A stretch of 22,035 nt of DNA from a virus. Position numbers and translations under genes: made by a program. Positions 12,395 to 22,035 of this stretch are shown here, piece after piece; position 1 is the first letter of the stretch; each line of letters starts with the position of its first letter. Location: IMG/VR virus record IMGVR_UViG_3300032291_004266, positions 1-22,035 of that record; one strand, given 5' to 3'. The notes under the pieces were generated by a model. That model saw nothing but the letters and a program-made list of their open reading frames with translations, ran no database searches and was not told the origin of the DNA.

Positions 12395-12742
12395 ATGGCA
12401 AATTTAACTTTAAGACAAGTAAAAGGTTCTCCACTTACTATCGCTGAATTAGATGGTAACTTTGAATACTTTACTGGTTCACATGCAATAACAGGTTCAC
12501 TTATAGTAACTGGTGGAATTACAGGAAGTGTTAGTAATGCAACTTCAGCATCCTATTTAAATACATTAAATCAAAATGTTATTGTAAATACTGGATCTTT
12601 AACTCTTAATGGTGGAGCCTTTATGAATCCAAACACCCAATCTTTGCCTTTGACTATACCTACGGGATACAATGCATTATTAGTTGGCCCATTATTTAAT
12701 TCTAGTTCAATAATTATTTCTGGAACATTAGTAATATTATAA
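12395..12742 (+). CDS. Small fibre-like structural protein
   Basis: A 115-residue protein beginning MANLTLRQVKGSPLTIAELD, followed by ITGS/VTGG repeats (AITGSLIVTGGITGS, about 31-45) typical of beta-structured phage fibres. Residues 50-62 (TSASYLNTLNQNV) form a cassette that recurs nearly unchanged in the 522-aa fibre protein downstream (ASYVNTLNQNV), so the two share modular ancestry. It is short for a complete fibre and may be an anchor, adaptor or small trimeric appendage. It lies in the region corresponding to fibritin (wac) in T4, just ahead of the neck genes. Function inferred only from composition and position. Confidence 0.68.
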   Translation: MANLTLRQVKGSPLTIAELDGNFEYFTGSHAITGSLIVTGGITGSVSNATSASYLNTLNQNVIVNTGSLTLNGGAFMNPNTQSLPLTIPTGYNALLVGPLFNSSSIIISGTLVIL

Positions 12743-12764: not shown

Positions 12765-14369
12765 ATGAGTACATTAAAAGTTAATAATATTGAACCTACC
12801 TCAGGTAACGATATTAGATTGACAGGAAACGTAACCTTTATTACCCCTGCTGGAAAAGAAATAGAATTTAATGATTCCAATACAAGCTTTAGTGGCTCTG
12901 TTACTATTACAGGATCTTTAAACACAAATAATGGAGATGTTTTAATCAACAAAGGAAATCTTATTTTAAAATCTGGATCTTTACTTATTGGTTCAGGAAG
13001 TTTAAACCAACAAACTACTTCTGGTTCAACTTCTGCATCATATTGGAGTGTAACTAGTTCAATAACAGTTACAGGTTCAGAAGGATCTGATTGGACTGTT
13101 GAAGTTGAAGGAAATACCACTATTACAGGTTCATTTGAAGTATTAGGTGATACTGATTTTCAAGGTGATATGACTATCAGCGGATGTTTAGATATTAATT
13201 GCTATAACGATGAAGATAATCCTATATTTTGGGCAATTGATGGTAGAACAACTCCGGCTCCAACAGGATTTGAATATGTTTCTATAAACTTTAGTACTTA
13301 TGGAAATTTAACAACAGGAATTGCTGCTGCCGCTGCTGCTTCAAATAACGTATGTTATATTTACGACCCTGCTACTGGAACATATGCCCCTTATGGATAC
13401 TCAGGAACAAGCTTTGATGGTGTTGTTACATATATTTCAGCTTCTGGTCCTGAAATTGCTACAGGAACAGTAATCCAAATTGGTTTTCCAACCCCTATTT
13501 CAGGAGCTACACCAATTTATCCAATTGGAACTGGATCTTTAACCCCAGTTGCATCTTTTTGTTGTGATGGAATTTCATTTAATAGTGATGTAACAATCAC
13601 AGGTGGATTAGATGTATATGGCCCTACAAATTTACATGATGGTTTAATTGTAACAGGATGTATTGAAATGTACTGTCCTGGTAATGAAGCAACTGCATGG
13701 TATGGATATGAAGGATCAGTTAGATTTTCAAAACCATCTGCTAGTGTCTATCTTAATTATGCATGGTTAGATCCTTCTTATGGAGATGTTAGAACAACCA
13801 TTTCAGCATCTGCTGCTGCAAATAGTGGAACTTTTAAATTATATAATACCGTAACAGGAACTACTCAAACAGTAAATTACATTGGTTCAACATGGACTCA
13901 AACACTTACTATTATTGAGTATTCAACACCAACACTTACAGCATATACCCCAATGCCTGTAATTCATATTGGAAATCAAACTCCTAATTTACAACCATTT
14001 GGAGCTGATGTTTTAATGGGAACTGGATCTTCCACCCCAACTCAAACTGCAACTTTCTGTTGTGATGGAAATGTATTATATGGAGATACTACATTTACTG
14101 GTTCAGTAACAATTACCGGTTCAACAGCAGTAACTGGTTCAACAACAGTTATAGGAACAACAGCAGTAACAGGTTCAGTAAATATTAAAGGTAATGGAAA
14201 ATTTTCTGGATCTCTTGAAGTATCTGGAGGATTAGCTTTACCTACTATATCAGATGGAACACCAGGGTACATTGGTAAAAAAGGTGAAATGGTATTTGGA
14301 GTAAACGGAAGTAATTATTTCTTTTACGTGTATATAAATAATGCTTGGAGATCAGGCTCATTAGCATAA
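12765..14369 (+). CDS. Fibre/appendage protein with duplicated cysteine module
   Basis: The 534 residues begin with MSTLKVNNIEPTSGND, an N-terminal segment shared with the 522-aa fibre protein at 14440 (MSTLRVNNLEPVSGNS) and probably the virion attachment end. TGS-rich beta repeats follow. A module of about 130 residues occurs twice: residues 141-267 run from CLDINC to FCCDG, and residues 299-433 from CIEMYC to FCCDG, the same Cys-x4-Cys and Cys-Cys spacing. Residues 443-489 are short VTGS-type beta repeats. The C-terminus (GYIGKKGEMVFGVNGSNYFF, then YVYINNAWRSGSL) resembles the closing segment common in phage fibres. Cysteine pairs are unusual for an intracellularly assembled phage protein; metal binding is an alternative to disulphides. 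A host-binding or whisker-like role is likely, given its place before the neck genes. Confidence 0.75.
   Translation: MSTLKVNNIEPTSGNDIRLTGNVTFITPAGKEIEFNDSNTSFSGSVTITGSLNTNNGDVLINKGNLILKSGSLLIGSGSLNQQTTSGSTSASYWSVTSSITVTGSEGSDWTVEVEGNTTITGSFEVLGDTDFQGDMTISGCLDINCYNDEDNPIFWAIDGRTTPAPTGFEYVSINFSTYGNLTTGIAAAAAASNNVCYIYDPATGTYAPYGYSGTSFDGVVTYISASGPEIATGTVIQIGFPTPISGATPIYPIGTGSLTPVASFCCDGISFNSDVTITGGLDVYGPTNLHDGLIVTGCIEMYCPGNEATAWYGYEGSVRFSKPSASVYLNYAWLDPSYGDVRTTISASAAANSGTFKLYNTVTGTTQTVNYIGSTWTQTLTIIEYSTPTLTAYTPMPVIHIGNQTPNLQPFGADVLMGTGSSTPTQTATFCCDGNVLYGDTTFTGSVTITGSTAVTGSTTVIGTTAVTGSVNIKGNGKFSGSLEVSGGLALPTISDGTPGYIGKKGEMVFGVNGSNYFFYVYINNAWRSGSLA
13185..14063 (+). repeat. Diverged internal duplication (two cysteine modules)
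   Basis: Codons 141-267 (13185-13565) and 299-433 (13659-14063) of the 534-aa fibre gene encode homologous modules. Both start with Cys-x4-Cys and end with FCCDG followed by a GDTT- or SDVT-type strand. Sequence between the anchors is strongly diverged, suggesting an old duplication. Cys197 of the first copy (NNVCYIYDPATG) is replaced by Phe in the second (SGTFKLYNTVTG). Confidence 0.65.
14091..14231 (+). repeat. Short beta-strand repeats in the fibre gene (VTGS type)
   Basis: Residues 443-489 are tandem 6-7-residue units of the form TVTGS or TAVTGS. At DNA level the units ACAGCAGTAAC and GGTTCAAC recur. This is a coding repeat expected of a trimeric beta-structured shaft, and similar units occur near residues 44-52 and 118-124. 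Confidence 0.7.
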
Positions 14370-14439: not shown

Positions 14440-16008
14440 ATGAGTACATTAAGAGTAAATAATCTTGAACCAGTTTCAGGTAATTCTGTAGTAGTAAATA
14501 GTGAATTATTAGTTAAAGGACCTGGAGGAGACATTGTAATAGGCAGCACTGGATCTTCTAATTTATCAGCATCATACGCTACTACAGCAGGATGTGCTAG
14601 TAACATAAACATTTCTACTATTGTTCCTGGAGATACTACAACTTCTGTAGTTTTAGTAAATGAACAAGCAGTAGGTTGCCAATCACCTTTTATTGATTCA
14701 GGTTTAACTTACAACGCTTCTACAAACATATTAAACGCAACTGTTACAACTGCTCAAACAGCATCATATGTTGTAACTGCTCAAACAGCATCATACGTTA
14801 ATACGTTAAATCAAAACGTAACAATAAATGGAAATGTAACTGCAAGTGGAGATATCAGACTTACCACTTCAGGAAGTGCTGTTGTTCGTCCTATAATTAA
14901 TTTAGTACCTACTGGAACTGCTTCATTTGACCCAAATTCAACAAATACTACTACATATTCAAATTACGGGATTAACGTAATTTCCACAGCATCTTCTCAA
15001 TCATATTGTTTAAGATTACCTCAAACCCCTACTCAAGGTAAAACAGTTACAATTATCAATAAAAGTGGTATAAATGTTCTTGTTTTTCCAAGTGTAATAG
15101 GTGGAGATATTAATGGAGTAGTTGATGGGTATTTAGTTATCCCGTCCGATGGAAAATCCTATTCATTTGATTGCTATGAAAACCCACTTCCAGGAGGATG
15201 GTCAGTAACAAATGTTAATGCATCATCAACAACAATTACTTCTGGGGTTGTTAATTTTAACCATAGTACATCTTCTTATCATATTGCTTTTGTAAATGAT
15301 TCAATTAAAGTAAGTGGAAGTAATTTAAGCAGTGCTAATGCATATAATGGATTAAATACAACTCAATATGCTGTAGGTAATTTTACTAATGCCTTTGGAA
15401 CATATATTTTTGGACGCACTTACCCTGATACTATTGCTGGACAAAATGTATGGAAATCCATCGATAGTATTCAAGTTTTAACAAATATCACTGCTAGTAA
15501 TGTACAAGCATATTTAAGACTTTCATTAGGAACTACTGTTGAATATTATTCAAATTCAAACCCAACAGGACCAGTTACTCCATTTAATCCTATTGCAACA
15601 TATAATTCTTTTAATACAAATGTATTAACTCCATGGATTAATAATCATCCTGGAACGATTAATTCATGGATGTATTCAACTATTCAATTACCACCTCAAA
15701 CAACTTCAGTTGTTCCTGGAACATTTGTTTCCTCTTCAAACCCATATACTTCAGTTAATGTTGGAGACCCAGGAACATTAATAATTAATCTTCCATCTTT
15801 ACCAACATATACTGCAGCCGGAGGTGGGTTTAAAATGTTAGGAAGAAATTATATAGGATCATTTGTTCATCCTGTTCAAGGATTACTTGATGCATATTAC
15901 AATGCTGAATTTTGTCCTATTTTTGAATTGAGCGTTTATGATAACTTATTTAACGCAGTTAACGTTCCTAATGCTAAACTTCAAGTATCTTATAATGTAT
16001 CACTTTAA
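14440..16008 (+). CDS. Fibre/appendage protein, second paralogue
   Basis: The 522 residues share the N-terminal anchor of the 534-aa protein (MSTLRVNNLEPVSGNS) but have a different body, the usual pattern of fibres that swap receptor-binding parts. Residues 104-121 are two copies of a nine-residue unit, TAQTASYVV and TAQTASYVN, running into NTLNQNVTINGNVTASGD, which matches the 115-aa protein upstream. Residues from about 150 on are a larger, non-repetitive, Ser/Thr/Asn-rich beta-type domain without recognised family motifs, and could be the receptor-binding or enzymatic tip. Scattered cysteines (52, 80 and later) are not in the CCDG arrangement. It has its own terminator-promoter punctuation. 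A virion appendage is the firm part; whether tail fibre, head fibre or neck whisker is open. Confidence 0.73.
   Translation: MSTLRVNNLEPVSGNSVVVNSELLVKGPGGDIVIGSTGSSNLSASYATTAGCASNINISTIVPGDTTTSVVLVNEQAVGCQSPFIDSGLTYNASTNILNATVTTAQTASYVVTAQTASYVNTLNQNVTINGNVTASGDIRLTTSGSAVVRPIINLVPTGTASFDPNSTNTTTYSNYGINVISTASSQSYCLRLPQTPTQGKTVTIINKSGINVLVFPSVIGGDINGVVDGYLVIPSDGKSYSFDCYENPLPGGWSVTNVNASSTTITSGVVNFNHSTSSYHIAFVNDSIKVSGSNLSSANAYNGLNTTQYAVGNFTNAFGTYIFGRTYPDTIAGQNVWKSIDSIQVLTNITASNVQAYLRLSLGTTVEYYSNSNPTGPVTPFNPIATYNSFNTNVLTPWINNHPGTINSWMYSTIQLPPQTTSVVPGTFVSSSNPYTSVNVGDPGTLIINLPSLPTYTAAGGGFKMLGRNYIGSFVHPVQGLLDAYYNAEFCPIFELSVYDNLFNAVNVPNAKLQVSYNVSL
14749..14802 (+). repeat. Tandem 27-nt coding repeat
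   Basis: Two adjacent 27-nt units beginning ACTGCTCAAACAGCATCATA, at 14749 and 14776, encode TAQTASYVV and TAQTASYVN. The near-identity at DNA level suggests a recent duplication in the fibre gene. Confidence 0.85.
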
Positions 16009-19576: not shown

Positions 19577-21334
19577 ATGGCAGAAACAATTGTATCACCT
19601 GGTGTACTAGCAATAGAAAATGACCAATCTTTTATAACACAAGCCCCTGTACAAGCAGGTGCTGCTATTATTGGACCAACTGTTTACGGTAAAGTAGGTA
19701 TTCCTACATTAGTAACTACATTTGGTGAATATCAAAATAAATTTGGAACTACATTTTTAAGTGGAAGTCAAACTTACACATATCTTACATCTATTTCAGC
19801 TTTTAATTATTTTAATAGTGGAGGAACATCACTATTAGTTACCCGTGTTGTAAGTGGTAGTACTATTAACGATTGGACTCCTGCTACTTCATCATTTATT
19901 TCTGCATCTGCTCATACTGCTGGTGCTCCTTATAATACTAATGTATTTGTTTTAGAAACAATTGCTGAAGGAAATATTATGAATAGTGTTGGCCCTACAG
20001 GTTCGAATGGAACTCTATTAAGTGGATCAGCAAATAATTTTAGATGGCAAATTGTTTCACCTGATACTAATTCAGGAACATTTACTGTATTAATTAGACA
20101 AGGAAATGATACCGCTTTATCTCCATCTATTTTAGAAACGTGGGGACCTGTATCATTAGATCCATTTGCTTCAAACTATATTGAAAAAATAATAGGTAAT
20201 CAAATTGAAGTTGTTGCTAATGACCCATCAACAGGTGAATACTATGTTCAACTTTCAGGAAGTTATCCAAACCAATCAGCGTATGTTAGGGTTAAACAAG
20301 TAAATCAAACTACTCCAAATTATTTTGATAATAATGGAGTTCCTAAAAATCAATTTACTGGTTCTTTACCTATTGCTAATAGTGGATCATTTGGTGATGG
20401 GAAAGGAAGTAATATCCCTACAGGTGTTGCTGGAGCATATTATGAAAATATTTCACAAACTAACATTCAAGGATTAACCTCAGCATCTTATGTTGAATCT
20501 ATTTCTTTATTAGCAAATAAAGATGCTTATAATTATAATTTTATAACAGCTCCAGGATTAATAGGAAATTCAGCTTATCATTTCCCCGTTGTTCAACAAC
20601 TAATTACAATGGTTCAAAACAGAGGAGATGCAATGGCTATAGTTGATGTTGTTGGATATAATTCAAATATAATTCCTGTAACTACAGCTGCAAGTGCCCT
20701 TGATACTTCATATGCAGCAACATATTGGCCTTGGTTAAAAACAATTGACCCCAATACAGGTCAACAAGTTTGGACACCTGCTTCAACAATGGTACCTGGT
20801 GTATATGCATTTAATGATAATGTAGCTTATCCTTGGTTTGCTCCTGCTGGTATTAATAGAGGTCTTATGACAACAGTTACTCAAACCGAAAGAGTATTAA
20901 CCCAAGGAAATAGGGATTTACTTTACCAAAGTAATATTAACCCAATTGCTACATTTCCTGGATCAGGAATAACAGTATTTGGACAAAAAACATTACAAAA
21001 GAAAAAAAGTGCTTTAGACCGTGTAAATGTTAGACGTTTATTAATTGAACTTAAAAATTATATTTCTCAAATAGCTGATACATTTGTATTTGAACAAAAT
21101 GATGCTGTTACTAGAAATAATTTTGTAGCAGCTGTTAATCCATATTTAGCTTCTGTTCAACAACAACAAGGTTTAACTGCATTTAGAGTTATTATGGATG
21201 AATCAAATAATCCACCTTCAGTAGTTGATCAAAATCAATTAATAGGACAAATTTATTTACAACCAACTCGTACAGCAGAATTCATCATATTAGACTTTAA
21301 TATATTACCTACAGGTGCAACATTCCCTGCTTAG
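19577..21334 (+). CDS. 18: Contractile tail sheath protein, copy 1 (T4 gp18-like)
   Basis: The sheath surrounds the tail tube and contracts to drive it through the host envelope. The 585-residue protein has the family N-terminus: IVSPGVLAIENDQ (5-17), QAGAAIIGPTVYGKVGIPTL (27-46), and a SISAFNYFNSGGTSLLVTRV segment (near 73-92), comparable to T4 gp18 (LLSPGIELKE, AALAGKFQWGPAF, FLQYGNDLRVVRAV). The C-terminal third carries the conserved core that interlocks neighbouring subunits: DRVNVRRLLIELKNYISQIA, FEQNDAVTRNNFV and AEFIILDFNILPTG. The middle is variable and surface exposed in known sheaths. T4 gp18 has 659 residues. Immediately followed by a second, clearly related sheath gene under its own motif. 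Confidence 0.95.
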   Translation: MAETIVSPGVLAIENDQSFITQAPVQAGAAIIGPTVYGKVGIPTLVTTFGEYQNKFGTTFLSGSQTYTYLTSISAFNYFNSGGTSLLVTRVVSGSTINDWTPATSSFISASAHTAGAPYNTNVFVLETIAEGNIMNSVGPTGSNGTLLSGSANNFRWQIVSPDTNSGTFTVLIRQGNDTALSPSILETWGPVSLDPFASNYIEKIIGNQIEVVANDPSTGEYYVQLSGSYPNQSAYVRVKQVNQTTPNYFDNNGVPKNQFTGSLPIANSGSFGDGKGSNIPTGVAGAYYENISQTNIQGLTSASYVESISLLANKDAYNYNFITAPGLIGNSAYHFPVVQQLITMVQNRGDAMAIVDVVGYNSNIIPVTTAASALDTSYAATYWPWLKTIDPNTGQQVWTPASTMVPGVYAFNDNVAYPWFAPAGINRGLMTTVTQTERVLTQGNRDLLYQSNINPIATFPGSGITVFGQKTLQKKKSALDRVNVRRLLIELKNYISQIADTFVFEQNDAVTRNNFVAAVNPYLASVQQQQGLTAFRVIMDESNNPPSVVDQNQLIGQIYLQPTRTAEFIILDFNILPTGATFPA

Positions 21335-21380: not shown

Positions 21381-22035
21381 ATGGCAAATTTTACAACTTC
21401 TCCTGGAGTAGCAATTAGCGAAATAGATAATACCTTTTTAACTGGGCAACCAGTTCAAGCAGGTGCTGCTATCATAGGACCAACAGTTAAAGGTCCTGTA
21501 GAAAAACCAACCTTAATAACATCTTATTCAGATTTCCAAATGTTATTTGGAGATTCTTTTATTAGTGGTGGTAATTCATATTCATATTTAACCTCAATTG
21601 CTGCTTACAATTATTTTAATTATGGTGGTACTTCATTATTAGTAGCTCGTGTTGTTACCCAATCAGCTAACTGGACCCCAGCAGAAAGTACTACAATTCA
21701 AAATTATTTTACCTCAGCATCGTTTGTTCTTGAAACAATTTCTGAAGGAGCTATTAATAATAACTCCGGTTCTAACATGTTAGGAAATAATGGAGCTTTA
21801 AATTCTGGCTCAGCTGAAAACATTCGTTGGGAAGTTACTAACTCAAATACTGGATCAGGTACATTTAATGTATTAGTTAGACGTGGTAATGATACAACCC
21901 CTAATAAAGTTGTACTAGAAGCTTGGAATAACTTAACATTAGATCCAAATTCATCTCGTTATATTTCTCAAGTAATTGGAGATCAAAAATTACAATATAA
22001 TTCTACAACAAACCAAATGGAATTATCTGGAAGTT
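21381..22035 (+). CDS. 18: Contractile tail sheath protein, copy 2 (partial, runs off window)
   Basis: An open frame from ATG 21381 to the window end gives 218 residues. It parallels copy 1 throughout: TTSPGVAISEIDNTFLTGQP against IVSPGVLAIENDQSFITQAP, QAGAAIIGPTVKGPVEKPTL against QAGAAIIGPTVYGKVGIPTL, and NYFNYGGTSLLVARVV against NYFNSGGTSLLVTRVV. It also shares the later FVLETISEG and LVRRGNDTT blocks. The two are diverged enough that this is not an assembly duplicate. Both could co-assemble, or one might form a specialised end of the sheath. The interlocking C-terminal core lies outside the window, so whether this copy is complete is unknown. Confidence 0.93.
   Translation, partial: MANFTTSPGVAISEIDNTFLTGQPVQAGAAIIGPTVKGPVEKPTLITSYSDFQMLFGDSFISGGNSYSYLTSIAAYNYFNYGGTSLLVARVVTQSANWTPAESTTIQNYFTSASFVLETISEGAINNNSGSNMLGNNGALNSGSAENIRWEVTNSNTGSGTFNVLVRRGNDTTPNKVVLEAWNNLTLDPNSSRYISQVIGDQKLQYNSTTNQMELSGS

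Follow-up and report, generated by a model that had tools for sequence, protein, structure and literature searches.

Metals, disulphides and repeated knobs in phage fibres

In outline, the R-type pyocin fibres R1 and R2 resemble the fibre described here, as they carry two tandem, similar knobs on a shaft. The R1/R2 shaft, however, holds a His6 iron site, whereas the present fibre has no HxH motif (PMC6116203 for the pyocins). The same paper describes HxH metal sites in pyocin and T4-type fibres alike (T4 gp12 and gp37, P2 gpV and R-pyocin). Cysteines are bonded in the virions of the Agrobacterium phages Milano, in which fibres are included (PMC10811340), and 7-7-1 (PMC12796354), and disulphides are further reported in the capsid and baseplate proteins of JBD30; all three are precedents for disulphides in phage particles. 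The Milano and 7-7-1 bonds lie largely between subunits, whereas the pattern considered below points to bonds within a domain.

A two-module fibre in a T4-like structural cassette

The window, that is, the whole stretch of DNA analyzed, is an IMG/VR record of 22,035 bases with genes for a T4-type terminase, portal protein gp20, S77 prohead protease, gp23 capsid protein and tail sheath, in this order, and is a T4-like structural cassette of Immutovirus relatives. The closest isolate by major capsid protein is the Flavobacterium phage vB_FspM_immuto (Immutovirus, 56.7%), and a Bacteroidota host is thus likely. Immuto has the same gene order (terminase-portal-protease-capsid-PhoH-neck), but unlike the window its genome contains no copy of the module by the A3 and A13 profiles. 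Between phoH and the neck protein gene there are several fibre-type ORFs, of which this gene is one; in T4, fibre genes also precede gene 13. Gene context and homology show the product to be a fibre of a T4-like phage, which is presumably trimeric and present in the virion.

The ORF and its nine cysteines are located exactly where the original prediction had placed them (Table 1). Eight of the nine cysteines in this 534-residue protein mark the edges of the two modules, each of which opens with C-x4-C and closes with CC; the ninth, Cys197, is limited to module 1 with no counterpart in module 2, also as predicted. Outside of the modules, the chain consists of short TGSxxV-type repeats, and residues 436-488 match PHROG 5070/7964 (E 9.4e-6). 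A sub-threshold Bactofilin match in the shaft (16.5 bits against a cut-off of 27.9) was disregarded. The C-x4-C unit TISG-C-LDIN-C resembles the linker unit TITG-G-LDVY-G, and other copies of this unit carry glycine or serine at the cysteine sites. The cysteines thus sit in a strand-like unit of the shaft repeats, indicating that C-x4-C marks the exit of the chain from the shaft and FCCDG its return.

Table 1. Features of the fibre gene, with positions in the window
Feature	Position	Strand	Basis
Fibre gene, 534 aa, two-module fibre	12765..14369	+	ORF call; full-length relatives
Residues 1-135, N-terminal part with proximal shaft; begins with MSTLKVNNIEPTSG, followed by xTGSxxV-type repeats	12765..13169	+	sequence
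Module 1, residues 141-267	13185..13565	+	module alignments
Cys141, module 1 N edge	13185..13187	+	kept in relatives
Cys146, module 1 N edge	13200..13202	+	kept in relatives
Y179-G180-N181, module 1 core signature	13299..13307	+	alignment of 13 modules
Cys197, internal to module 1; Ile in L016 module A	13353..13355	+	sequence comparison
Cys266-Cys267, module 1 C edge	13560..13565	+	kept in relatives
Inter-module linker of shaft repeats, residues 268-298, including GGLDVYGPTNLHDGLIVTG	13566..13658	+	nucleotide comparison with L016
Module 2, residues 299-433	13659..14063	+	module alignments; AF2 core model
Cys299, module 2 N edge	13659..13661	+	kept in relatives
Cys304, module 2 N edge	13674..13676	+	kept in relatives
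Y339-G340-D341, module 2 core signature	13779..13787	+	alignment of 13 modules
Cys432-Cys433, module 2 C edge	14058..14063	+	kept in relatives
Distal shaft repeats, residues 434-490	14064..14234	+	PHROG 5070/7964 match
C-terminal tip, residues 491-534, ...GEMVFG...AWRSGSLA; common to SHAEG fibres	14235..14366	+	tip comparison

Retention of the edge cysteines

Besides the window, the fibre is found in eight IMG/VR records that represent five distinct proteins, with 98, 89, 87, 78 and 44% identity to the window over residues 129-455. None of the eight records has lost any of the eight edge cysteines, even at 44% identity. The initial scans used patterns containing cysteines and could therefore have favoured cysteine-bearing relatives, but cysteine-free patterns, confirmed on the core without its edges, returned the same eight records, demonstrating that the retention is not a search effect. 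In the most distant relative, L016, the edge cysteines persist while all four tryptophans of the same region are changed. Cys197 is kept in the other four distinct relatives and is isoleucine in L016. That retention implies function, as originally proposed, is supported by these comparisons, and free substitution of the cysteines, which would speak against it, is seen in distant homologues only (the SHAEG-set modules and module E of L016, both discussed below), the near family being invariant. The cysteine pattern is real and probably has a function, and the protein is otherwise an ordinary modular phage fibre of which it is an unusual form. The linker between the modules (13590-13688, residues 276-308) is identical to L016 at 82 of 99 nucleotides, against 42-44% identity of the fibre proteins, and may be either a recombination joint or a site of strong constraint. 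The L004 fibre has a further cysteine in its proximal shaft, at residue 75 (L004:1030-1032), outside of the modules and with no evident mate.

An old duplication and the predicted core

The two modules align with a BLOSUM62 score of 155, whereas the best of 500 shuffles reached 63; for the interiors alone, stripped of the cysteine motifs, the corresponding values are 100 and 42. The suggested duplication is therefore real. Modules 1 and 2 are 33-34% identical. Between orthologues identity is higher, at 77-89% for module 1 and 72-87% for the interior of module 2 (compared with L003, L004 and L008), indicating that the duplication is older than the split of these phages and that the cysteine frame has outlived it. 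The strong divergence claimed for the sequence between the motifs is a fair description of 33-34% identity, but the interiors retain a clear YG[DN] signature and the helix and strands that follow it; the tyrosine and glycine of this signature are invariant in 13/13 aligned modules.

An AF2 model of module 2, made from 13 sequences, has a pLDDT of 68.7, with 80-92 per block of ten over core residues 31-100 and about 44-53 at the edges. In this model the module core, and only the core, is predicted to be a small beta-rich domain of beta-beta-alpha-beta4 type, and the edge cysteines sit in edge strands outside of the confident core. A full-length monomer model from six sequences was set aside (mean pLDDT 37.9).

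Searches for described relatives of this core gave no clear match. Foldseek found nothing at E <= 1e-3 in the PDB or BFVD, and a second look by VIA gave a best Z of 7.9 (rmsd 2.9 over 90 residues), the matches being unrelated helicase, polymerase and flavin-reductase barrels with a common arrangement; kinship with these families is neither claimed nor dismissed. Pfam and NCBIfam hold no family for the modules, solved structures gave no sequence match for the whole fibre or its modules, isolates and plasmids gave no tblastn match, and the genome contigs scanned contained no relative. A neck-protein scan covered at least 600 stretches, at least 522 of them encoding a relative, and profile A3 detected no module at a meaningful score in the best 80 of these at least 522; L062, which is among those best 80, was matched later by broader profiles. 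No publication on this module was found in the literature searched, which is not proof of absence.

The same core in SHAEG fibres

A scan with the C-terminal tip led to 47 loci, and in these and in earlier loci the module profile matches the same core within SHAEG (YadA-head-like) repeats. Profile-profile comparison of the shaft-type and SHAEG-type cores (A4 against A13) gives a probability of 90 and an E value of 1.5e-6. The SHAEG fibres, found in uncultured T4-like phages (L146, L149 and L155, with PHROG 25468 in L146 and L149), share the homologous inserted core and the C-terminal tip with the window fibre. They differ in that the core is set between SHAEG repeats and has cysteine-free edges, whereas the window protein is devoid of SHAEG repeats and has no match to YadA_head. 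Among the near relatives, L008 carries SHAEG-type repeats towards its C terminus, where the match of 19 bits falls short of the Pfam cut-off of 25. The inserted YG[DN] core is thus common to both kinds of fibre, as a feature of the copies compared here rather than a published definition.

An iterated profile was rejected, as it drifted into the SHAEG flanks in its fourth round, and consequently a core-only profile was built. It yielded 40 domain rows among 132 sequences including the window (4,423 fragments), and no hits in one shuffled copy of the 4,423 fragments. With window-type modules counted once each and rows of identical sequence omitted, edge cysteines are present in six of the seven shaft-set modules, the exception being module E of L016. 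N-edge cysteines are present in none of 11 distinct SHAEG-set modules, although the first copy in L147 starts at the contig end with its N flank unseen; the second copy in L146 has one cysteine, located C-terminal to the core. Fisher's p for the difference in edge cysteines between the two sets is 0.0004, a value inflated by relatedness. As SHAEG-set cores lack edge cysteines, the fold does not need them. The edge cysteines may be either something that the thin shaft requires or a peculiarity of a single lineage, context being confounded with lineage in these copies.

A relative with five modules

The L016 fibre has 1009 residues and five modules, A-E. Modules A and B were detected by a model from window-type modules alone (8.7e-23 and 1.2e-29); C (2.3e-10), D (8.4e-5) and E (0.048, weak) were detected by a model from the window type and L016 A and B only. 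The profiles A3 and A4 include L016 modules picked by eye. The edge cysteines number 3:3 in A (148, 153, 154 : 266, 273, 274), 2:2 in B (306, 311 : 439, 440), 2:2 in C (472, 481 : 597, 604), 1:1 in D (632 : 746, plus an internal Cys694) and 0:0 in E. Were cysteines to fall on either edge randomly, balance in all four non-empty modules would have a chance of 0.022; additional N-edge and additional C-edge cysteines moreover co-occur in A, C and D and are absent from B, E and both window modules (1/35). The two figures overlap, are not independent and refer to edges defined post hoc. These statistics are modest, and the argument for pairing comes chiefly from one protein. Nevertheless, the balanced counts favour disulphide pairs between the N edge and the C edge over a fixed Cys4 metal site. 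Different alignments of module C retain a different cysteine of the CC pair, and we therefore do not assign the order in which the cysteines would pair.

What the edge cysteines may do

The reading that we favour, at a probability of roughly 0.58, is that each module carries two intrachain disulphides that run from its N edge to its C edge and staple the base of a knob in the fibre of a T4-like phage. Two tandem knob modules would interrupt a shaft built from short beta repeats of the TGS type, with C-x4-C where the chain departs from the shaft and CC where it rejoins. The putative bonds would pair 141/146 with 266/267 in module 1 and 299/304 with 432/433 in module 2, would close once the particle has left the reducing cytoplasm, and would stop the knob from moving and the shaft strands from slipping out of register. 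In the SHAEG-set copies, which lack the cysteines, the repeat roll perhaps already holds the ends. The knobs themselves are probably host- or surface-binding, or else spacers. Among the points against the staples, phage fibres fold in the reducing cytoplasm, the spacing of C-x4-C does not match that of CC along two plain strands, and the second SHAEG-set copy in L146 has a lone cysteine.

The original prediction left the choice between metal coordination and disulphides open. The balanced edges favour disulphides, as does the complete absence of both HxH and CxxC from the six distinct proteins (that of the window and five relatives); CxxC pairs define the cysteine zinc knuckle or ribbon. It appears unlikely, then, that each module uses its four edge cysteines to coordinate zinc or a centre of the iron-sulphur type, within the chain or across the trimer, as a nucleus for fibre folding. 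The count of invariant cysteines, four in each module, would suit such a site, and it is established that trimeric phage and pyocin fibres can contain metal ions, but the fibre metals described in that work are held by six histidines in HxH motifs (PMC6116203), which the window-type proteins lack, and the 6, 2 and 0 edge cysteines of L016 modules do not fit a fixed Cys4 site. Also rather unlikely is bonding between the three chains of the trimer or to another virion protein. Cys38 of the Milano short tail fibre is indeed tied by a disulphide to baseplate proteins (PMC10811340), and the edge cysteines would be located where chains meet at the three-fold shaft. Bonds between equivalent sites, however, require no balance between N and C edges, and the equal counts per module are more simply explained within one chain.

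That the cysteines are free and merely tolerated, forming no bond and binding no metal, as buried residues handed down in a joint that changes slowly, is harder still to accept. The adjoining linker is nearly invariant too, so that local constraint or recent exchange could explain part of the retention, and distant homologues manage without these cysteines. Against this, they are kept at both ends of both modules at 44% identity, where every tryptophan has changed, and their gain and loss are balanced between the edges.

Should the staples be real, they would reveal a way in which exchangeable knobs are secured in the thin shaft of a phage fibre and would provide a rule for reading fibre modules. 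In a far more speculative extension of the staple idea, which we regard as a long shot, the bonds would act as a redox switch: the knobs would fold open in the reducing cytoplasm, lock at lysis in oxygenated water and could reopen at a reducing host surface, making fibre stiffness or knob display dependent on location, which phages would adjust through the number of staples per module, gained or lost one at a time (three to none, as in L016). The module itself is a small domain inserted into phage fibres, with no significant Pfam or PDB match. It comes in two settings, free of edge cysteines within SHAEG rolls and flanked by them within TGS shafts.

Apparent mobility of the fibre gene, and neighbouring ORFs

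A 166-kb relative (L007:6001-7605, L048:2721-9929) has a neck protein that is 94.5% identical to that of the window and a fibre gene that is 87% identical. There, the fibre gene is part of a queuosine gene cluster, flanked by a radical-SAM (QueE-like) gene on one side and GTP cyclohydrolase I on the other, and the phoH-neck slot is instead filled by two SHAEG-type fibres. Given this different position, the unit appears to be mobile as a one-gene cassette.

The MSTL[KRS]VNN start of the fibre recurs at the ORF 14440-16008 and in the fibres of L048 and L005. Upstream, a 115-residue ORF (12395-12742) has the start LTIAELDGNFEYFTGSHAITGSL, which also begins three L016 ORFs and is perhaps a virion-attachment end. 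Towards the end of the window, the tandem ORFs 19577-21334 and 21381-22034 have similar starts (VQAGAAIIGPTV); the former matches phage tail sheath families, and the latter, cut by the window end, looks by eye like its paralogue.
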